Source: a virus. From it: DNA of 27,194 bases. This document shows positions 7,528-27,094 of the stretch, piece after piece. Location: IMG/VR virus record IMGVR_UViG_3300010413_000139, positions 1 to 27,194 of that record, one strand, 5' to 3'. Within the stretch, counting starts at the first letter, position 1. Each line of letters opens with the position of its first letter. Under the pieces are notes generated by a model. That model saw nothing but the letters and a program-made list of their open reading frames with translations, was not told the DNA's origin and made no database searches. A program made the position numbers and the translations under genes.

Positions 7528-8697
7528 CTAAACTATAGTCCAAGAGCCTTCCGAAGAAATTACTCGGAAATTATGATCTGAAAGACAAATTATCATAACT
7601 GAATCACCCGTATTTAGCGATTCAATATAACCACCAACACCTGATGTTGTCGTAGAATTACCAAATCGTATTTGATCTGAAGCATTTTGAGCTATACGAA
7701 CTTTCCCAGCTCCTTCCATATATGCTGCAAATGCTTCTCCACCTGAACATCCAGTTGGCAGAGTAAGAGTGACAGTGCCAGCATTATTAGCAAAGATACC
7801 TTCATTAGCTACATACGTAGCTGATGTCGTCGTTTCTTCTCTCCAAACGAATCCAGCACTTGCTCCCCCTTTAGGAGTGACATATCCATTAGTATCTACA
7901 TCAAAATAGACGTCATCAAAAACACACATTCCGACGTCATTCTTATTAGCAGGGGCACCAGTACGAGCTTTAGAAACCTGTACTTCACATTTGAAAGCAT
8001 TGGCAGCTCTAGAGTGCATATCAACAGGAATTGAATGAGCAGCAACAGCATCTCCCTGTAAAGTGATTCCTCCAGTTGCATCCGCAACAACTGGATTAGT
8101 ACCCGGAGCCGTATTGTTATCTATGGTAATAGAATCTATAGCTGATCCAGCACCACCTTTCCTAGTAACATACCCATTTTCATCAACATCGAAGGCCGTA
8201 TCATCAAAGCAACAGATTCCACAATTATTCTTATCGGATGGAGAACCAGTCCTAGCTTTAGCCACTTGAATCTGATGACGCATCGTATTAGCGTCGTATT
8301 TGACAGTTTCCAATGGAATACTGGAAGGATTCGCACCAGCAGCAACAGTAAGTCCGTCCCAGTCAGTAATTCCTGCCAAAGTAGGAACAACTTCCGCATT
8401 AACTTGGTCTCTAAAAGTTAAAGCAGGAGGCGTGCTTCCTCCGCTTAAAGGAAGCCAGATAGCATTTCCGCTAGCATCAAACTCTGAAAGATAATAAAGA
8501 GTTCCTTCCGTTCCACTTTGAACAGGAATGCCATTGACAGGATTACGTCCAATAATGCCTAATGCCCCAACTTCATAGAACTTATTAGTCATAGGATCTT
8601 TTTTATCTGAAGTCGTAGGTGGGCGAGAAAAATAATATTTAGGAGTTAATGACTGTTGATGCCTTACTCCTTTAAGATGGTTATTTCTTACTGACAT
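7528..8697 (-). CDS. Tail-fibre-like structural protein with internal duplication
   Basis: 389 residues. Residues about 35-85 form a capping-type region (TNKFYEVGALG...TLYYLSEFDASGNAIWLPL). Two related units follow, about 141-184 and 235-280, each with V-x-KARTG-x-P-x-x-KN-x-x-G-x-C, FDD-x-x-FDVD-x-NGYVT-x-KGGA. The C-terminal quarter is a beta-rich domain ending FRVISSEGSWTIV, a segment shared by many phage appendages. The start lacks a clear SD; ATG 8592 (MTNKFYE) is an alternative. Likely an elongated trimeric fibre. Confidence 0.68.
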   Translation of the reverse strand: MSVRNNHLKGVRHQQSLTPKYYFSRPPTTSDKKDPMTNKFYEVGALGIIGRNPVNGIPVQSGTEGTLYYLSEFDASGNAIWLPLSGGSTPPALTFRDQVNAEVVPTLAGITDWDGLTVAAGANPSSIPLETVKYDANTMRHQIQVAKARTGSPSDKNNCGICCFDDTAFDVDENGYVTRKGGAGSAIDSITIDNNTAPGTNPVVADATGGITLQGDAVAAHSIPVDMHSRAANAFKCEVQVSKARTGAPANKNDVGMCVFDDVYFDVDTNGYVTPKGGASAGFVWREETTTSATYVANEGIFANNAGTVTLTLPTGCSGGEAFAAYMEGAGKVRIAQNASDQIRFGNSTTTSGVGGYIESLNTGDSVMIICLSDHNFRVISSEGSWTIV

Positions 8698-9962: not shown

Positions 9963-10639
9963 TACAGTGCCTGAGTTACGTAATATGTACGAACTGTCAC
10001 TGTAGAATCATTTGAAGCATTTCCAGTAATGTTTGATCCTAAGTTATCTAATACGAGAGCTTGAGCTTCGGCAGAAGTAGCAGCTACAATCGCATCTTGA
10101 GCAGCGATAGCATTGGTAATCGTATCAGCAGATTGGTCAATCCATCCAGTAGTTTCAATGGTACTTGAAACCTGTACGCCAGAAGCATCAGTATACTTAA
10201 CTCCAAGGTTGTCACCAGCCTCAGCAAAGACTTCCGAACCATAGTTAAGCTTGAATACTGCACCAATAAACTGATGAAATGATCCAGCAGCAGGAGCAGC
10301 TACAAGCTCAATTGGAGTAGTTGCAAGTGCTTTAACTTCGGCAGCGGTAATCGTAACATCAGCCCATTGCAAGAATCCACTAGCTGCTAAGTTTGAAGCT
10401 GTGATAACTGTACTGCCTGATTTTCCTTGAGCTTCTGCATCAGTAGAAAGTTCAACTTTACCCTTTACTGAAGTCGTAGCATCGGGAATTAAAGATGTAT
10501 AGGATTCATAGAATCTTTTTGGTGAAAGTGCCACTTTATCATTGGTTACATCAGCAGCCTCGGAAGCATTGGCAAACTTCATAGCTCCATAATGATTCTC
10601 GTCGGCTGTTCTCCTCGTATCAGGATATAATTTTGTCAT
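9962..10639 (-). CDS. Fibre or capsid-decoration protein
   Basis: 225 residues. The N-terminal half contains SEAADVTNDKVALSPKRFYESY and SVKGKVELSTDAEAQGK, the kind of V-K-G-x-V-x-L-S/T-D-x-E-A repeat seen in tail-fibre and appendage shafts. The second half (ITAAEVKALATTPIELVAAP, FIGAVFKLNYGSEVF, NASNDSTVTVRTYYVTQAL) is a beta-domain found in small phage structural proteins. Coupled to the preceding gene by ATGA. Could be a fibre shaft plus head-binding domain or a decoration protein. Confidence 0.6.
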   Translation of the reverse strand: MTKLYPDTRRTADENHYGAMKFANASEAADVTNDKVALSPKRFYESYTSLIPDATTSVKGKVELSTDAEAQGKSGSTVITASNLAASGFLQWADVTITAAEVKALATTPIELVAAPAAGSFHQFIGAVFKLNYGSEVFAEAGDNLGVKYTDASGVQVSSTIETTGWIDQSADTITNAIAAQDAIVAATSAEAQALVLDNLGSNITGNASNDSTVTVRTYYVTQAL

Positions 10640-12027
10640 TGTTGTTCCTTTTCATTAACTAAATCTAAAAACTCTTGTATATCCTTTTCGGATACATCTT
10701 GAAATTTGTCAATAATTTCTTGACTAACTCCCTGTTTACGCAATTGACGAACCATTTGACTATAGATATTTTTTGCTATAGGAAGTTTATTTTTCTTTGT
10801 AGCAGTTATAAATTGCTTAGATAAATTTTGAAAACGTGGATTTGTAAGAAGTTCTCTAGCTACTTTTCTAGAACCTACTTCTCCAATGAGTTCTCCTAAT
10901 GCGACCATATCACCGCTGATTAATCCATAAATTCCTTGAACAAGATTCTTTACGCTTAATCCTGTTTCTATCGCATTTGTTATAGGTGTATTCTTTAGTC
11001 TTTTTGTGATTGAATAGTATCTTGAAGCTAAGTCATTTGTTAATTCAAATTTATTTGCAAAGTTAGGATTTTTCTTTTTCAATGCCTTGACAATTGGTTC
11101 TTTAATTGTCTGAATAATATCTCTTTCACCCTTAAATTCTGCATTGACATCTCGATAAAAATTGACTACATCTTCTATAGATCCCTTTGAGTTAATAAGA
11201 TCTTTTAAATCTTCAGTAATACGACTTCTTTGACTGTTTGGCATATTCCTAAGTTTTTCAGAAATTGAATTATATAATTCAGCCTGTTCTACACCATTTA
11301 GAACTTCATTGACAGCTGCATCTTTTTTCAACTGCTCAAATAGATGATTTTGTCCCATCTTTGCGACGTCAAGCCTTTCTTGAGTCTTACCGCCTTTAGG
11401 AGATATATGTGATAAAAAGTTTTTAAAACCTTTTTCTTCTTGCAATAGAGGAGCAATTTCATTTTCTGTTAACCCTTGTTCCCTAGCAAAATCTATAAGC
11501 TTTTGTTGTTGAGCATTTTTACCTATGATTCTTTTGCTAAAACTAGGAAGAGCAAATCCAATATTTTCACCAATGGCTTGAGGAATTGGGCCTCCGCCTT
11601 TTTCTTGAATAGCTTGACCTAGAATAGCTCCTATTCCAGTTCGAGCCAAAGATTCAGGTAACTTTATTCCTCCACCAACCGCATATGGAGCCAACTCTCC
11701 AAAACGTTCTAATGTTCGGCTTGTCGCATTGCCTTGTGTTGGCAAATATTGCATCAATGCAGCTTCTAAATCTGTTTCTTGTGGTTCATCTAAAGGACTA
11801 GCTGATTGTCCAATTCTAGTGATTCCCTTTATTCCACCTCTTACTAAAGCGTTTTCGCTTGATTTCAAGTTTCTTAATGTCTGTTCGACTAAACTTCTTT
11901 GCTCTTCAAGGGGACGATTGCGCAAAACACCAGATTCATCCATATATTGCTGAGTATTTGGATTCTGAACAGGGAGTTCTTCTTCATCTATAAGTGAGAA
12001 AAAATCTAAATCTTCTTGTCTAGACAC
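10636..12027 (-). CDS. Putative internal virion (ejection) protein
   Basis: The start is placed at GTG 12027 (MSRQEDLDFFSL...), giving 463 residues. It has SD aagga 5 bases upstream and overlaps the previous stop by 8 bases, like the rest of the operon. The ATG at 12117 would overlap the upstream gene by 98 bases. The protein is rich in charged helices, with a Gly/Ala hydrophobic stretch (SLARTGIGAILGQAIQE) and another near residue 370 (VQGIYGLISGDMVALGELIGEV). Position after two similar proteins suits the third DNA-ejection protein of a podovirus. No enzymatic motif seen. Confidence 0.58.
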   Translation of the reverse strand: MSRQEDLDFFSLIDEEELPVQNPNTQQYMDESGVLRNRPLEEQRSLVEQTLRNLKSSENALVRGGIKGITRIGQSASPLDEPQETDLEAALMQYLPTQGNATSRTLERFGELAPYAVGGGIKLPESLARTGIGAILGQAIQEKGGGPIPQAIGENIGFALPSFSKRIIGKNAQQQKLIDFAREQGLTENEIAPLLQEEKGFKNFLSHISPKGGKTQERLDVAKMGQNHLFEQLKKDAAVNEVLNGVEQAELYNSISEKLRNMPNSQRSRITEDLKDLINSKGSIEDVVNFYRDVNAEFKGERDIIQTIKEPIVKALKKKNPNFANKFELTNDLASRYYSITKRLKNTPITNAIETGLSVKNLVQGIYGLISGDMVALGELIGEVGSRKVARELLTNPRFQNLSKQFITATKKNKLPIAKNIYSQMVRQLRKQGVSQEIIDKFQDVSEKDIQEFLDLVNEKEQQ

Positions 12028-13288
12028 CGCTTTCCTTCCATCTTTGATATTCTGCTGGAGTGGGAATCTTGTAATTGTGTTTTTTTGCCCAGTTAATAGC
12101 TTTTTCACTATCTCCATTAAATTTTTGTTTTAAAATCTTAGCTCTTTCAACTGTTAAAATTTTACCTTTTATATCTTTCTTTTCATTTTCCATTTCTCTC
12201 AATATAGCTTCTTGTCCTTTTTCTCTATCAATTAAAACTTGTATTCTATATGCAAGTTTATCCTGTATTTCATTAGCAATTGGCTTAATATTTTTTTCAA
12301 CTTGTTGTGCTATGTCTTCTGGATAATAACCATTATCTCTTAGAGAGTTACTCGCTATTTCATTCGATAATTTAATTTTTTCTCTTTTAAGTTCTGTTTC
12401 AGAAAGTTTAGCAATTACTGCTATCTCTTGAGCTTCTGGACTCGTACCTATTTTTGGCAATGCAGTTGAAATTTGTTGCTCAATCCACATATTAGGTCTA
12501 GCTCCAGCTCTTGATAAGTCACCAAGTAACCATTCTTTTCCTGATGTTAAGAATAGTTGTCCACTTCCTGTTCTAAATCCTATTGCTAAGTTTTCAGGCA
12601 TAAAATTAGCCAAATTATCTGAAGAAAAGAAATCTAAGTTTCCAGTTCTAATAGCTTGTAGCATTTGCCTTCCAGCATTTTCTTGCAGTGATAATGATTT
12701 TGATTCTTTATCTATCTCTTGCAGATACGGCAATGCTCTCTTGTTAGAAATTTCTGCAAAATCTCGTTTTGATTTAGCAATTCTATCACGTCTCTTTTGC
12801 TCAGATTCAACCGCTTTTGGATATAACTGAGAAAGGACAGCTAAATCCTGATCGCTTGCATTTGTAAAATTGATTGATCCATCCTGATTAATATAAGATG
12901 GTAAATCCTCATTTTGTTGTGACTGATTACCTGATTGAAAATTACCAAACAACATTTGTTCATTAAGTAATTTATTTAAATCTAATTTATCCTTTACAGA
13001 TAGATTTGAATCTCTTAAAGCTTGTCTAGGATTATCAGATTGAAGAATCCTGTTAGATTCTTTAATTCTACCAAGTTCCTGTTGTTTTGTTATTCTATTG
13101 TTCAATGCTTGAGTAATAGCATTTCTTCGATTAGGATCTTGAATCTTCATTGCATCAATAAGCATCTGATCGATTGTATAGTTATTATCTTTACTTCTAT
13201 TAAGTATGGTATTAAGCGTCTGATCTTCTGCAATACTCTGAATCTGCCTATTAGCATTAGCAGCGAATCGGGAACCTAAAGATGTCAT
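12020..13288 (-). CDS. Putative internal virion (ejection) protein
   Basis: 422 residues, largely helical and Gln/Asn/Lys-rich, with a conserved-looking centre (AIGFRTGSGQLFLTSGKEWL, LSRAGARPNMWIEQQI, STALPKIGTS). The C-terminus GKILTVERAKILKQKF, INWAKKHNYKIPTPAEY resembles C-terminal segments I know from phage internal or DNA-transfer proteins. It starts with an ATGA overlap and has SD gaggag. By position (capsid, connector, nozzle, then three ejection proteins) it matches the P22 gp7/20/16 slot; sequence similarity to those is not obvious. Confidence 0.58.
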   Translation of the reverse strand: MTSLGSRFAANANRQIQSIAEDQTLNTILNRSKDNNYTIDQMLIDAMKIQDPNRRNAITQALNNRITKQQELGRIKESNRILQSDNPRQALRDSNLSVKDKLDLNKLLNEQMLFGNFQSGNQSQQNEDLPSYINQDGSINFTNASDQDLAVLSQLYPKAVESEQKRRDRIAKSKRDFAEISNKRALPYLQEIDKESKSLSLQENAGRQMLQAIRTGNLDFFSSDNLANFMPENLAIGFRTGSGQLFLTSGKEWLLGDLSRAGARPNMWIEQQISTALPKIGTSPEAQEIAVIAKLSETELKREKIKLSNEIASNSLRDNGYYPEDIAQQVEKNIKPIANEIQDKLAYRIQVLIDREKGQEAILREMENEKKDIKGKILTVERAKILKQKFNGDSEKAINWAKKHNYKIPTPAEYQRWKESGV

Positions 13289-13913: not shown

Positions 13914-14192
13914 CTAACTTACTGTTGTCCATGTAACAGCACTTGGGCTTGTGTGCTGAGTTAATACTTCAACTTTATCAGTTGATTGATTGACGTTAAT
14001 TGTTCCTATTGCAAGATTCGTATCATCTGCTTGACCATCAATACCTGTTCCACTTGAATCAAATCTAGTAATTACGTCTGGTTTCAAATTGATTGCTGAG
14101 GCTAACTGACGATACATATTCTTTAGATCACGGACTAGCTCTTCATTGCCCTCTGAACTAGCAAATTGATATTCTTCTGGGATCTTAGTCAT
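13914..14192 (-). CDS. Hypothetical virion-region protein
   Basis: 92 residues, no recognised family. The first 45 residues are helical (EGNEELVRDLKNMYRQLASAI); the second half is Thr/Asp/Asn-rich beta (TGIDGQADDTNLAIGTINVN ... AVTWTTVS). It overlaps the 3' end of the 917-residue gene by 8 bases and has SD aggat. Its place between the nozzle-like and ejection genes suggests a small tail or virion component. Confidence 0.5.
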   Translation of the reverse strand: MTKIPEEYQFASSEGNEELVRDLKNMYRQLASAINLKPDVITRFDSSGTGIDGQADDTNLAIGTINVNQSTDKVEVLTQHTSPSAVTWTTVS

Positions 14193-16938
14193 TTGTAAAT
14201 CCTGCTCTCTCAGCTCTTATACGTAAAGACTTAATTATCAATTGATTGCTTCTTGACAATTGTTCCATCTTTATTGTATGGAAATCCGCAATGTTTTCAA
14301 CAGATAATTTAACATATTCTTTCTTTTTAACAGTAGAAGTTGGTTGTATAATAACATTTTTAATATAGTCATTATCTCCATTGCTATCTTCAAGGCTTAC
14401 GAGCATTGAAGCTCCATTGTTATCGATAAGAAACTCAATCTCTTTTAGGTAGCATTGTCTACCTTCTTCACGCCAAGGATTAAACTCATTAAGTACAGCT
14501 CTAAAGTCGATAACCTTCGAAACTAATCCACCAGTTGAATAGGCTGTGAATGAAGTTGTATCAACATTAAGAGTAATTGTATTCGTAGTTTTTGCTGTTA
14601 TAGTGTAATACTCAAGTCCACTATCATTTGAATTAATTCCACTATTTCCATCATCATCTTCCATACCTTCTACATTTTCGATCTTAACAGTATCTCCAAC
14701 TTCAAAAGCATGTTCATCTATAGTCAATACTGCTGAAGAAGCTTGTGTGATCCCAAAGATACGATTCGTGTAGTCATCAAAATCTTGATTAAGCTCATAG
14801 ATAAACCCATAGTCATCGCCTGCTAAATCTTTTTTATAAGCTTGACTTAACCCTAAAGTATTCAATGTTTCTTCAGTTGTGTTTAATGAAACCCAACTAG
14901 CCTTTACGCTTTCATCAATCTGATTCAAAATTAATGAATAACCAGTTTCACTATGTCCAAAGCAAGAAAATCGCTGATTAAACTTTGACCAAGATTTTTC
15001 CTGCCAATTATGAGTTAATACCTTATCTTGAGTATCTGTTAGTGTATTTTCAGAACTGCTGTAAGCAAACATTATCTGACGATTTGTATTGTCATATCCT
15101 CCATAGGTAAGATCAATATCGACTGGATCAACTTCATCCCTAGTAAAATTTGGAATATCATCATCGACTAGCAACACTCTATTCGTATCGTTATCCATGA
15201 TTCCAATCTTACCAAATGATTCCACTTTAGACGATCTAGCTACACTAGCAAATGAAGCTTCCGTACCAAACTCATTTGACAGTTCTCTTGTTGAATAGGG
15301 GTTAAATGGATCTACAGTCTTCTCAAGCATCCAATTAGACTCATAGAGTGTCAATGCGACCATATCATCAACTATCTGATATCCACTTAGAAAATCCCTA
15401 GTATCGAGATTGATAAGCCCTGATCCTGATGTATTGAACTTATCTCCATTTCCTGATGAATTGCGTATAGCAGAATAGAGTATTCCTTGCTGATAAGCTA
15501 TGCCTGCAAGCGTTGGATAGACAAAGTTAATCCTTTCACCATAGAAAAATACATGCTTAGCTCTTGTCAAAGTCTGAGGACTAGCCCCAAATGCTTCATA
15601 ATCTGCATTATCGACTGCATTTGTAAACCTTTTTATCCCATAACCATCATAGAAATAGACATCATCCAATCCCTGACCAGTAAAGACAAATCGTCCATTG
15701 TAATCCTTATCAGGATACGATGTCCCACTCACATAGTCTTCATTGTTGGTTATCCCAAGAGTAGTAATAGGATCTGAGCTTGTAAAAGGAACCTGTTGGA
15801 GCGTATTTGTATTGCCATCATACTTGTATAGATAGTTCTTATCAAAGACAAGCATCTCTCTGGTTTCGTTTTCATCAATATGCTCAAATATTCCCATTAT
15901 TCGTAGAGAAGCATAGTAATAATAGGTAAGAGAAAGTGTTGTGGCTGTCAACGCTCCATCAAATCCTACTTCAATTTCTCCCGTAGTCCAATTGATCGTA
16001 TTGTCCAAACTACAATCGACATTGCCTACAAAGATAGCTCCATCATTATTCAAATAATCTATTGTAAATAGGTCTCCACCAGTCAAAGGTGTATCAAATG
16101 TAACAATGACTTCACCTGTTGTTTCATCAACAGAGTTCGTACCACCAGCATTATAATCCCCTGAAAAAGACCATCCTCCTGAGTAAGAAGCAACGATCTC
16201 CTTAACGCCTAGCAAAGAATCCGTTATTGATATCGTAATATCAGATAAATCTAATGGTATTGGTGTCAAACAGAAAGTGAATGTATTTGTATTAGTGCTA
16301 TATCCTGCATGAGGAGCTGCATAGATATTGACAGTTTTAGATTTATCATCGTTATAGACTGTGACATAGTTTCTAACCAATGGAATATTAGCGATAGTAA
16401 AAGTCTGCTGAGCAGTTGCAGTAGCTGTTAAGGAATTGTCAGTAGTAATTTCATAAGTTACTAATATTGAATCTCCACCTGTCAAAGTAGTATCAAATGT
16501 AACCGTTATATCCCCTGAAGAAGCATTGATTGAATTTGTTCCTCCACTATCATAATCACCTGAGAATACCCAAGTAGTTCCATTATATGTTGATTTTATC
16601 TGTTTTGCACCTAAAACAGAATCATCTACATTAATAATAATATAGGTTGTCTTAACTGGTGTAATAGATAAATTAAATGTTTGTTCCGCATTATTATCAG
16701 AATTTTTAACATCTTCATCCTTTATTAAGTCACTTGAAGGCAACATCCCCTTAGAAGCTACAAGTGGCCAATCACTCAATCCACCTGTCGCAAATTGTTG
16801 GAACCCTAAACGAGATTTAAGCTCTTGACGATAGATGAAACCATCTTCTAAGTCAGAATAAGAACCTGAAGGCTCTAAAAATGTTACACCACTCTTAGAA
16901 ATACCTTTATTAAATCCTGATATTTCAAAAATTGGCAC
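14185..16938 (-). CDS. Tail nozzle / DNA-stabilisation-like protein with inserted beta repeats
   Basis: 917 residues from a GTG start with SD ggaggt. The N-terminus MPIFEISGFNKGISKSG and the segment RQELKSRLGFQQFATGG are typical of podoviral hub/nozzle proteins (P22 gp10-like, T7 gp12-like). The middle has propeller-like blades: FNPYSTRELSNEFGTEASFA, GKIGIMDNDTNRVLLVDDD, TYGGYDNTNRQIMFAYSS, VLTHNWQEKSWSKFNQRFSC. Residues about 88-341 hold two full tandem domains plus a partial one, each with L-G-x-K/E-x-I, W-x-FSGDY-x-x-GGTNS and G-x-I/V-x-VTFDT-x-LTGGD. Without this block the protein is near 660 residues. It would close the portal channel beneath the adaptor. Confidence 0.65.
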   Translation of the reverse strand: MPIFEISGFNKGISKSGVTFLEPSGSYSDLEDGFIYRQELKSRLGFQQFATGGLSDWPLVASKGMLPSSDLIKDEDVKNSDNNAEQTFNLSITPVKTTYIIINVDDSVLGAKQIKSTYNGTTWVFSGDYDSGGTNSINASSGDITVTFDTTLTGGDSILVTYEITTDNSLTATATAQQTFTIANIPLVRNYVTVYNDDKSKTVNIYAAPHAGYSTNTNTFTFCLTPIPLDLSDITISITDSLLGVKEIVASYSGGWSFSGDYNAGGTNSVDETTGEVIVTFDTPLTGGDLFTIDYLNNDGAIFVGNVDCSLDNTINWTTGEIEVGFDGALTATTLSLTYYYYASLRIMGIFEHIDENETREMLVFDKNYLYKYDGNTNTLQQVPFTSSDPITTLGITNNEDYVSGTSYPDKDYNGRFVFTGQGLDDVYFYDGYGIKRFTNAVDNADYEAFGASPQTLTRAKHVFFYGERINFVYPTLAGIAYQQGILYSAIRNSSGNGDKFNTSGSGLINLDTRDFLSGYQIVDDMVALTLYESNWMLEKTVDPFNPYSTRELSNEFGTEASFASVARSSKVESFGKIGIMDNDTNRVLLVDDDIPNFTRDEVDPVDIDLTYGGYDNTNRQIMFAYSSSENTLTDTQDKVLTHNWQEKSWSKFNQRFSCFGHSETGYSLILNQIDESVKASWVSLNTTEETLNTLGLSQAYKKDLAGDDYGFIYELNQDFDDYTNRIFGITQASSAVLTIDEHAFEVGDTVKIENVEGMEDDDGNSGINSNDSGLEYYTITAKTTNTITLNVDTTSFTAYSTGGLVSKVIDFRAVLNEFNPWREEGRQCYLKEIEFLIDNNGASMLVSLEDSNGDNDYIKNVIIQPTSTVKKKEYVKLSVENIADFHTIKMEQLSRSNQLIIKSLRIRAERAGFTND

Positions 16939-24364: not shown

Positions 24365-26641
24365 TTAAACCAAGCTTTTTCTTAAACTTTTAAATTGACG
24401 ATGCTTTTCTAGTCCTATACTTACCTTTTCAGCAGCTTCTATATGCGATACAGCCCTCGCCATATAACAAAAAGCATCAGCAAAGTCAGCATGAGCGTCA
24501 TCGAATGGTTCATCAATATAGATTCCAAGTTGTTCACTCCATTTCTTACGATATTTCATCAAATGCTTTATTAATCCATTGCATCTCTTCATGAAAAAGA
24601 CGCATCTTCTTAAAATATTTCTAGCATGAGAGATTTGAATCTGCTTATCTTGTCTAGGTAATACGATTATTTTAATATCAGTATGTTCAAAATATTTTCT
24701 AAACTCTTTTTCCCAAGACATAGATAAGTCAATATTTGATCTTTTTCTTACATCATGTGGTATAAATATTCTTTGATAAAAATATTTATTTTCTTGAAGA
24801 AGATGTTGAGCGTAGAACTTAGCATCCTTATTCGTATCATCGTAATAATCAATTACTCTAACTTCACCATGCTTGATTTGAAAATAAATAATTACAGTTC
24901 TATGGTTGATTCCTATATCCATAGCAACATAAACCGGAAGGATTGGGTCATAAATCGTATTATAAAGCATCCTTTCTTCACGATTGGCTAATTCTATCCC
25001 TTCAGAAAAGAAATAGGCATCAGATTTAACTAAAAATGATTCTTCTACAGTTGACGGATACTCTTGTCTAATCTTTTCTCCAAGAAGCCGATAATACGAA
25101 GCATACCAGTTCTTTTGTCCTCTAGTTAACTCAATTCCATGCTTTTCTTGAAGCATTTTAAAATAATCAATTAACTCAATTGGCTTTTCAATATCTTGAT
25201 CTAATGTATAGCTTTTTTCATGGTGCCAAGCCCAAAAAATAAGGTTATAATCAAGTTCGCTTAACTCTTTATCCTTATTTTGAAGAGCATCCATGCACAT
25301 ATCCGCAAAATATCCTTCATTTCCTTCCGCAGTAGACTCAATAATAATTTTTCCTTTCTTAGAAACAGCTTGAAGAGTTCCCGTTACGACTTCTTCCGCA
25401 TGGATAGGATACCTAGCACATGTTTTACCAAACTCAGATACTAGAATTGCTTGATAAGCTCCTCCTCGAAGAGTTGTATCAACTCGAAGAGAGGATTTAT
25501 TGTTAAAAGTAATTTCTTTAGCCGATCTTTGAATAATTCCAGTACAATTTCTAAATTTAGGATCCATACAGTCCAAAGCATGTCCAATAATCTTTTTAAA
25601 TATATGCTGGGCATGTTCAATCGAGTAAGAAACGATTCCACAATTGAGATTAGGAGTAAAAAGACATTCATCGAGTATATAAATAACCGCAAATGTCGAA
25701 TTATGAGATACATATCCTTCAGCAATAAATGTTTTAGTTGATGTTTGAAGATCAATTAATTCCTGTTCTCCAATACATTCTATGGAAGTGATTATCGAAT
25801 AATTTCCAGACTTGATCTGAGGAACTTTCTTTCCTTCCCACCAATCTTGTTTTAAAAATCTAGATGGTCTAGTAATTCCTAAAAGCTTGAAAATTTCATC
25901 AGTTCTACTCAAAACAAGCTTATTAACGGGTCTTTTTCCATATTTACCTAGACGACAAGCTTTATCAATTTCTATTCGATAGGAATAATCATTTTTCTCA
26001 AAATATTGAACCAATCGATTCCAAACCTTTCCTTCAACTTGAGAAAGTCCAATATTTCCACCTAACCTATTTTTTTTAGCTAATGATCCTTCTCCATCAA
26101 GCATTCCTCCCATCCAGCCATCTTCATAATCTCCCTGTTCCCAGGTATCAGTCACTATACGTCTAATCTTTTGTCCAACTTTAAGTTGATACTTACCTTC
26201 ACCATGTATACTTCTCCAATGACAATCAGTTGAAGAATTTCTCGCAAGCCATCGATGTTCACCACTACAGATTAAAGATTTTCCATTTTCAAAATTTATT
26301 TTATATGTCTTTCTTATAGTCGTTTTTTTTGCTTGTACAATTGATTTTCGTAATTTTCTAGCACTTCCACGACATCTCGGATGTTCATCAACTGATACAA
26401 TTTCATCTCCAACTTTTATATCTTTTAAGCAAATCCACGAAAAATCTGACTTAAGTATTTTAGTATTAGGATCTAAGCACATTCCCAATTGTCTAGCTTT
26501 CAAAATTAAATTACGATTATGTAATACTTTAAGCGTTTCTTTTTGAATATGATTGAGTTTAAATTTAATCGAATTTCCATCTCTATCGATAATTCGATAA
26601 AGATTATTCATTCTCCATTCTTTCGATAGAATTGGGTTCAT
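24365..26641 (-). CDS. Terminase large subunit containing an in-frame intein
   Basis: 758 codons. The terminase parts are residues 1-54 and 315-758, about 498 residues after splicing. Joining them restores KARQLGM-STFAV, the Walker A-type loop of phage terminases. AILVSEFGKTCARYP (398-412) supplies Walker B/catalytic E403, IIIESTAEGNEG (432-443) the coupling motif, VAMDIG with D575 starts the RNase H-like nuclease, and DDAHADFADAF near the C-terminus gives further acidic metal ligands. Residues 55-314 are an intein. Until it is removed the ATPase loop is split, so the precursor should be inactive. SD agg lies 5 bases upstream of the ATG. Confidence 0.9.
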   Translation of the reverse strand: MNPILSKEWRMNNLYRIIDRDGNSIKFKLNHIQKETLKVLHNRNLILKARQLGMCLDPNTKILKSDFSWICLKDIKVGDEIVSVDEHPRCRGSARKLRKSIVQAKKTTIRKTYKINFENGKSLICSGEHRWLARNSSTDCHWRSIHGEGKYQLKVGQKIRRIVTDTWEQGDYEDGWMGGMLDGEGSLAKKNRLGGNIGLSQVEGKVWNRLVQYFEKNDYSYRIEIDKACRLGKYGKRPVNKLVLSRTDEIFKLLGITRPSRFLKQDWWEGKKVPQIKSGNYSIITSIECIGEQELIDLQTSTKTFIAEGYVSHNSTFAVIYILDECLFTPNLNCGIVSYSIEHAQHIFKKIIGHALDCMDPKFRNCTGIIQRSAKEITFNNKSSLRVDTTLRGGAYQAILVSEFGKTCARYPIHAEEVVTGTLQAVSKKGKIIIESTAEGNEGYFADMCMDALQNKDKELSELDYNLIFWAWHHEKSYTLDQDIEKPIELIDYFKMLQEKHGIELTRGQKNWYASYYRLLGEKIRQEYPSTVEESFLVKSDAYFFSEGIELANREERMLYNTIYDPILPVYVAMDIGINHRTVIIYFQIKHGEVRVIDYYDDTNKDAKFYAQHLLQENKYFYQRIFIPHDVRKRSNIDLSMSWEKEFRKYFEHTDIKIIVLPRQDKQIQISHARNILRRCVFFMKRCNGLIKHLMKYRKKWSEQLGIYIDEPFDDAHADFADAFCYMARAVSHIEAAEKVSIGLEKHRQFKSLRKSLV
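25700..26479 (-). mobile_element. Intein with LAGLIDADG-type homing endonuclease domain
   Basis: 260 residues, C55 to N314 of the terminase frame. Block A is C-L-D-P-N-T-K-I-L...LKDIKVGDEIVSVD. Block B is SLICSGEHRWL, with catalytic H129. The endonuclease centre has D-G-W-M-G-G-M-L-D-G-E-G-S-L (174-187), a single clear LAGLIDADG-like motif; a second is not obvious. Block F/G is TSIECIGEQELIDLQT, then TFIAEGYVSH313-N314, followed by Ser315 as the +1 nucleophile. All class-1 splicing residues are present (Cys1, block B His, His-Asn, Ser+1), so splicing is expected. The insertion divides the Walker A loop. Confidence 0.9.
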
Positions 26642-26686: not shown

Positions 26687-27070
26687 TTATTCAATGATTT
26701 CTTCGCTCTCAAGCGACTTGATGTATTCAATAAGATTAACGAAATTGGTTTCTTCTCCAAGGTCTTTTTTAATCATCTGCTCCGTACGCATTTGCTTGCG
26801 TTCGTAATCAGCAAGGAGAAGATCATACATGCCAATCTCTCTATTGAAGAGCGTCGAACTGTAACCCTTCTTACCTAATTTATTTCTTAGCCTCTGAGCG
26901 ATTCGAAGCTTCGTATGTTTAAGGGCAAGACTAAATGAGGCATCTTCAGCACAGAGCTTATCAATGTCATCGGGGTCGAGATTTTCGTTTACGAAGAACT
27001 CCCCTAGATACGTCGATTTCTCGTCGAGACCCCAACGTAGGAGAGATTCTGATAAATTTGACTTTTTCAT
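26687..27070 (-). CDS. Terminase small subunit (putative)
   Basis: 127 residues from ATG 27070 (MKKSNLSESLLRWGLDEKST), which has agaga as a weak SD; ATG 27091 lacks any SD. The helical, charged protein contains SLALKHTKLRIAQRLRNKLG and STLFNREIGMYDLLLADYER, and position upstream of and in line with the large terminase supports a DNA-recognition subunit. No textbook HTH is evident by eye, so the call rests mainly on context, size and composition. Its start region lies in a perfect 12-bp hairpin. Confidence 0.62.
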   Translation of the reverse strand: MKKSNLSESLLRWGLDEKSTYLGEFFVNENLDPDDIDKLCAEDASFSLALKHTKLRIAQRLRNKLGKKGYSSTLFNREIGMYDLLLADYERKQMRTEQMIKKDLGEETNFVNLIEYIKSLESEEIIE

Positions 27071-27080
27071 CAGAATCTCT
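27042..27080 (-). promoter_or_regulatory. Hairpin burying the small-terminase start codon
   Basis: A perfect 12-bp inverted repeat (27042-27053 and 27069-27080, agagattctgat and atcagaatctct) with a 15-base loop. In the leftward mRNA one arm holds the SD-like agaga and the first bases of the ATG (27070-27068); the other lies inside the gene. Such a fold would restrict ribosome access to the first late gene. Confidence 0.5.
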
Positions 27081-27094
27081 ATATAAAACATCTA

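Follow-up and report, generated by a model that had tools for sequence, protein, structure and literature searches.

Organization of the terminase locus

The window, by which we mean the whole stretch of DNA analyzed here (27,194 nucleotides, positions 1-27,194 of the virus record IMGVR_UViG_3300010413_000139; loci related to it carry L-numbers), encodes on its minus strand a large terminase subunit (TerL) whose Walker A loop is interrupted by a long in-frame insert (Table 1). The identity of the gene is given by its match to the PHROG family of terminase large subunits (phrog_2, 3e-21) and by tblastn matches to annotated phage terminases, including those of Hafnia phage Pocitis76, of Klebsiella phages and of Pseudomonas phage PS-1. 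Direct nucleotide relatives were not found by megablast among 50,697 phage records. A frame of 134 residues directly before the terminase gene in upstream direction (window 26687-27091, minus strand) has no PHROG match and, from its location, may encode the small terminase subunit; large frames without a PHROG match are also found in the tail and structural region (window 14185-16938, 12020-13288, 10636-12117 and 7528-8697, minus strand).

Table 1. Features of the interrupted terminase gene in the window
Feature	Position	Strand	Description
TerL precursor gene	24365..26641	-	758 aa with intein, 498 aa when spliced; open frame
N-extein	26480..26641	-	Residues 1-54, ending in ...LILKARQLGM, the first part of the Walker A loop
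Class 1 intein, as assigned from residues and predicted fold	25700..26479	-	260 aa, C55-N314; Hint splicing domain enclosing a one-motif LAGLIDADG endonuclease domain
Cys1 codon	26477..26479	-	Nucleophile at the N-terminal splice junction; C in 46/46 distinct members
Block B histidine codon	26255..26257	-	Intein H75, in S-G-E-H; H in 46/46
Endonuclease domain	25826..26128	-	Intein residues ~118-218, from AlphaFold2 secondary structure
Sole LAGLIDADG motif	26087..26113	-	MGGMLDGEG, intein residues 123-131
His259 and Asn260 codons	25700..25705	-	Penultimate and terminal residues, C-terminal cleavage; both in 46/46
C-extein	24368..25699	-	444 aa from S315 (+1 nucleophile), STFAVIYILD...; stop codon 24365-24367

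In precursor numbering, Cys1 of the insert is residue 55 and the block B histidine is residue 129. The insert closes with Ser-His-Asn, the His-Asn pair being residues 313-314, and Ser315 directly after it occupies the +1 position. Upon its removal, the flanks read LILKARQLGM-STFAVIYILD. When IMG/VR was scanned with the C-extein, 80 loci were returned, of which 78 cover the junction. Occupancy among these is sporadic, with an intein in L003 and none in the other 77, whose alignment is unbroken over spliced residues 30-75 (junction 54/315). Comparison with intein-free terminase alleles, a check put forward in an earlier sequence-only reading of this DNA, aligned the N-extein residue for residue with all 77; the K, R, G and S of KxRQxGxST are invariant in them, and their consensus is K-x-R-Q-x-G-[ML]-S-[TS]. 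As the intein-free relatives read straight across the junction, the boundaries of the insert are exact.

What can be discerned about the nature of this insert? The single protein, used alone in an initial viral scan, yielded one weak relative only, and a three-row alignment was required to go further. The family comprises 46 distinct full-length members (the window plus 45 in the alignment), ranging from 254 to 283 residues. Invariant among them are C1, H75, D243, H259 and N260 as well as, in the endonuclease domain, D128-G129-E130 and Q147. Residue 72 is T in 44 members and S in the other two, giving T-x-x-H in most relatives, and the +1 residue is S in 36, T in 9 and C in one; decaying or shortened members were not encountered among the 46. 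The set of residues for class 1 chemistry is complete in the window, comprising Cys1, S72-x-x-H75, D243, H259, N260 and the +1 Ser.

The profile search for an intein (Hint) domain, likewise put forward earlier, matched Pfam Intein_splicing (8.7e-6) and TIGR01445 (0.004) with the single protein, both below the curated cut-offs, and NCBIfam rSAM_Rv_intein (2.9e-19) over the full intein length, also below its curated cut-off. Intein_splicing is matched by every member of the family, and a profile built from the 46 distinct sequences finds the solved inteins gp41-1 (1e-6) and Mxe GyrA (7.6e-6). AlphaFold2, run on the family alignment, predicts a Hint fold with one alpha-beta-beta-alpha-beta-beta-alpha unit (pLDDT 93.3, pTM 0.89), for which the best solved matches in Foldseek are the PI-PfuI, PhoVMA, TliVMA, PI-SceI, GyrA, DnaB and gp41-1 inteins. 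That there is no intein at all, the insert being a large insertion domain accommodated by the terminase or else an RNA intron, would agree with its preservation of the reading frame and with Pfam scores under the curated cut-offs; yet this is hardly credible in view of the full splice-junction chemistry kept in 46 of 46 members, the high confidence of the predicted Hint fold and the exact empty sites in relatives. The RNA intron is rejected on account of a frame that stays open through 260 codons and of conservation at the protein level. The residues, the predicted fold and the exact empty sites confirm, at the level of sequence and model, a class 1 intein, which is presumably self-splicing. 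The initial proposal of a complete intein situated precisely within the Walker A loop of the terminase is borne out by the 77 empty-site relatives and the full set of splice-junction residues.

A single-motif endonuclease domain

The predicted endonuclease domain consists of the LAGLIDADG helix (intein residues 118-130), strands 131-133 and 143-147, a helix at 151-162, strands 167-172 and 185-190, and a final helix at 193-203. The EDGWMGGMLDGEGS motif occurs once in the window intein. The sequence-only reading had likewise suspected a single LAGLIDADG motif, which agrees with one motif by sequence and one structural unit in the AlphaFold2 model; its E130 is expected to be the metal-binding acid. 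No second, degenerate motif was found by pattern in any of the sequences or in the predicted fold. All 74 full-length aligned sequences have exactly one motif per protein, and the two motifs (blocks C and E) that denote a monomeric endonuclease are not present as a pair. Modelled alone, the domain reaches a pLDDT of 85.8 and is related by Foldseek to PI-SceI, I-DmoI and I-OnuI with probabilities of 0.97-1.0, if with E-values of only ~1e-3 to 3e-2; the Pfam LAGLIDADG match is weak for the window member (E 0.075).

One-motif LAGLIDADG enzymes act as homodimers, and a count of one motif is not equivalent to a dead endonuclease. D128, G129, E130 and Q147 are unvaried throughout the core members, and the conservation of DGE is no artefact of the search, since DGE lay outside the pattern used in the viral scan, whereas that of YEDGW is in part such an artefact. 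The ratios of dN to dS for the endonuclease domain and the Hint part are 0.29 and 0.20 between the window and L090, 0.17 and 0.20 between L095 and L153, and 0.03 and 0.04 between the L139 and L146 groups, all of them rough values with synonymous rates near saturation. Roughly taken, these ratios below 1 point to purifying selection on the endonuclease domain much as on the Hint part, although this selection could partly reflect support of splicing. With a single motif in 74 of 74 sequences, an invariant acid in 46 of 46 members and dN/dS below 1, the one-motif domain is, as judged from its conservation, the standing form of this intein family and not a broken remnant.

Homodimeric intron endonucleases of the I-CreI type resemble the window domain in having one motif and one alpha-beta-beta-alpha-beta-beta-alpha unit per chain. 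They differ from it in that the window domain sits inside an intein and finds its better Foldseek matches in the two-motif enzymes PI-SceI, I-DmoI and I-OnuI, and in that a dimer is here only presumed.

Relatives, insertion site and horizontal spread

Inteins in phage terminases are well documented. P-loops are favoured by inteins, those of phage terminases included (Kelley et al., 2016; PMC5050341), just as the sequence-only reading had stated. Seven insertion sites in mycobacteriophage terminases are described, of which TerL1-a and TerL1-b fall in the P-loop; at TerL1-a, the intein separates the Walker A Lys from the Ser/Thr that follows it. In E. coli, splicing was quick for five of the terminase inteins, and intein-free alleles were cut by two inteins that have a pair of LAGLIDADG motifs (PMC5050341). 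The window intein, which lies between Met and Ser of the Walker A loop (RQLGM/ST; a slash marks the junction), shares with the TerL1-a and TerL1-b inteins (the latter in BAKA gp6) this location in a phage large terminase. By sequence, and by the published definition of site a, its position corresponds to TerL1-a, one residue before TerL1-b, because the BAKA TerL1-b site (RQNGKG/S), when aligned with RQLGM/ST, lies one residue further on. The BAKA TerL1-b intein itself differs in being longer and having two LAGLIDADG motifs, with no close sequence kinship found. P-loop terminase inteins are thus a known kind, which the window intein joins.

Among well-studied relatives, the closest in sequence is an intein in the terminase-like protein of cluster C1 mycobacteriophages (LRRHood gp245, L084), with 269 residues, class 1 chemistry and the single motif LAGFMDGEG. 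While colinear with the window intein over its full length (hhalign 100%, 6.9e-42), it is only 28% identical and resides at the C-terminal end of an ATPase remnant instead of the Walker A loop. An intein of this type, Pham3880-g, was tested in ScottMcG and splices in E. coli (PMC5050341); LRRHood and ScottMcG, sharing cluster and gene, presumably carry the same intein, and there are 120 such C1-cluster phage records at ~90% DNA identity or more. Among curated profiles, all 46 members match best, over the full intein length, to NCBIfam NF038136, which represents an intein found in Rv2578c-family radical SAM proteins; that intein differs in having a bacterial metabolic host gene, and the match stays far below the model's whole-protein cut-off. 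More relatives occur in Gordonia phage portal genes and in the polymerase gene of a Mycobacterium plasmid. In the bacterial family to which one host genome (Mesobacterium) belongs, the intein was found in 2 of 199 genomes. On the 425-kb plasmid pRA01 of Roseicitreum antarcticum (L083), a terminase among phage structural genes contains a member of this intein family.

Nearly all 46 members share one Walker A site (RQxGx/[ST] or an equivalent sequence); their host terminases are as little as 11-25% identical and of types that include KPAQVGL/ST and TKSKQIGV/SW. Of 1035 pairs, 97% show a higher similarity between the inteins than between the host proteins (54% versus 16% identity, for example). 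Slow evolution does not account for this likeness, because in near pairs the inteins change faster than their hosts, with identities of 66% versus 86% for the window and L090 and of 63% versus 80% for L110 and L117. L090 is the nearest relative of the window by host gene, the terminases being 86-90% identical; in the intein tree, it groups instead with L089 (terminase only 53-61% identical). A grouping of the window and L090 inteins is rejected with an AU p of 0.029; as this grouping was selected with the trees already in view, the value is a modest one.

The sequence-only reading had supposed that, if the second motif was lost, the intein might be immobile and kept for other reasons, and indeed the window intein has one motif only, where two are present in the BAKA TerL1-b and Bethlehem TerL1-c terminase inteins (PMC5050341). 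On such an account the intein splices, the endonuclease is a decayed remnant devoid of its second LAGLIDADG half, and the element persists as it is not precisely losable or has been co-opted. We consider this unlikely. Against it stand a single motif universal in the family, a DGE acid invariant and no decay among the 46 members, a domain predicted with high confidence as a complete unit, purifying selection on that domain and the signs of wide horizontal spread. The window intein is thus, by these sequence comparisons, probably still mobile.

A homodimeric LAGLIDADG enzyme prefers a near-palindromic target. Such a preference is not visible here, as no excess symmetry is found at the insertion site: two-fold symmetry of the DNA does not convincingly exceed codon-shuffled controls at any of 13 centres. 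A perfect 12-bp palindrome across the splice point in the window, AATG/TCGACATT, was considered as a dimer target and rejected as a chance occurrence favoured by the M-S-T-F codons; it is absent from the same-site relatives L003 and L083, and few intein-free relatives have it (L044, L076, L068). At L132 (124-972), the intein lies ~9 residues upstream of the usual site (IQVL/C...HN/CLKGRQVGIT) with Cys at +1, apparently a change of insertion site.

Proposed cycle of splicing and homing

Our analysis argues, with good though not complete confidence, for a mobile, splicing-competent intein with a complete one-motif endonuclease that would act as a homodimer on the DNA coding for the Walker A loop. 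The gene would first give rise to a 758-residue precursor devoid of a continuous ATP-binding loop, and Cys1, H75, H259, N260 and the +1 Ser would then carry it through N-S acyl shift, transesterification and Asn cyclisation to a working terminase of 498 residues and a free intein of 260. The LAGLIDADG domain of the free intein could dimerise in the manner of homodimeric LAGLIDADG enzymes, and the dimer could cut intein-free terminase alleles at their Walker-A-coding DNA, followed by homing into the cut alleles through recombination in co-infected cells. For this phage, splicing, dimerisation, DNA cleavage and homing are all steps that we infer. As the ATP-binding loop of the precursor is split, it is fair to infer that packaging depends on splicing.

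Could splicing serve a regulatory purpose? The sequence-only reading had suggested that a host condition affecting splicing, such as redox at Cys1, could time packaging; splicing would then be held back until a signal released it. Environmentally responsive inteins are known, with mycobacterial DnaB and P. horikoshii RadA as examples; ATP binding cannot do without the loop that is interrupted here, and one sub-clade has a Cys at -1 adjoining Cys1. In the window, however, the -1 residue is Met and the last 30 residues of the N-extein contain no Cys, few Cys positions are common to near relatives, and five published terminase inteins are quick to splice in E. coli (PMC5050341). For this phage, redox timing at Cys1 thus finds no support, and conditional splicing of any kind seems most improbable. 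The sub-clade in question (L134-L143 and L145-L150, L144 excepted) places Cys directly before the intein Cys1 (RQQGC/CF...), an arrangement absent from the window; a disulphide switch is possible there, and these proteins would suit the redox idea better than the window does.

To the known P-loop inteins, our analysis adds a coherent clade of small inteins. Each member carries half of the usual endonuclease in unbroken form, and the clade occupies one position in otherwise dissimilar terminases. More tentatively, and with somewhat less than even confidence, we propose that this is an undescribed, widespread clade of one-motif, homodimeric inteins which homes into the Walker A coding sequence across unrelated terminase families, a very short conserved stretch being sufficient. 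A description of a one-motif intein family was not found in the literature, searched mostly outside subscription journals, which is weak evidence of novelty. If the dimer model were true, these proteins would constitute compact, intein-borne, site-specific nucleases whose target is set by a near-universal protein motif, and would offer a clear test of homing elements crossing between unrelated host genes.

Two further kinds of interrupted terminase genes were observed. In L078 (2053-3000) and also in L079, L080 and L081, related terminase genes that lack the present intein are split after about C-extein residue 166 by an insert of ~0.95 kb, which does not continue the gene as an open frame, contains an HNH-like frame of 299 residues and has no Rfam match. 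A different terminase, in L002 (1069-4281), contains a larger intein at the coupling (C) motif (IIFG/C...AN/TGGDMESG), with two LAGLIDADG-like motifs and an Ala in place of the penultimate His.
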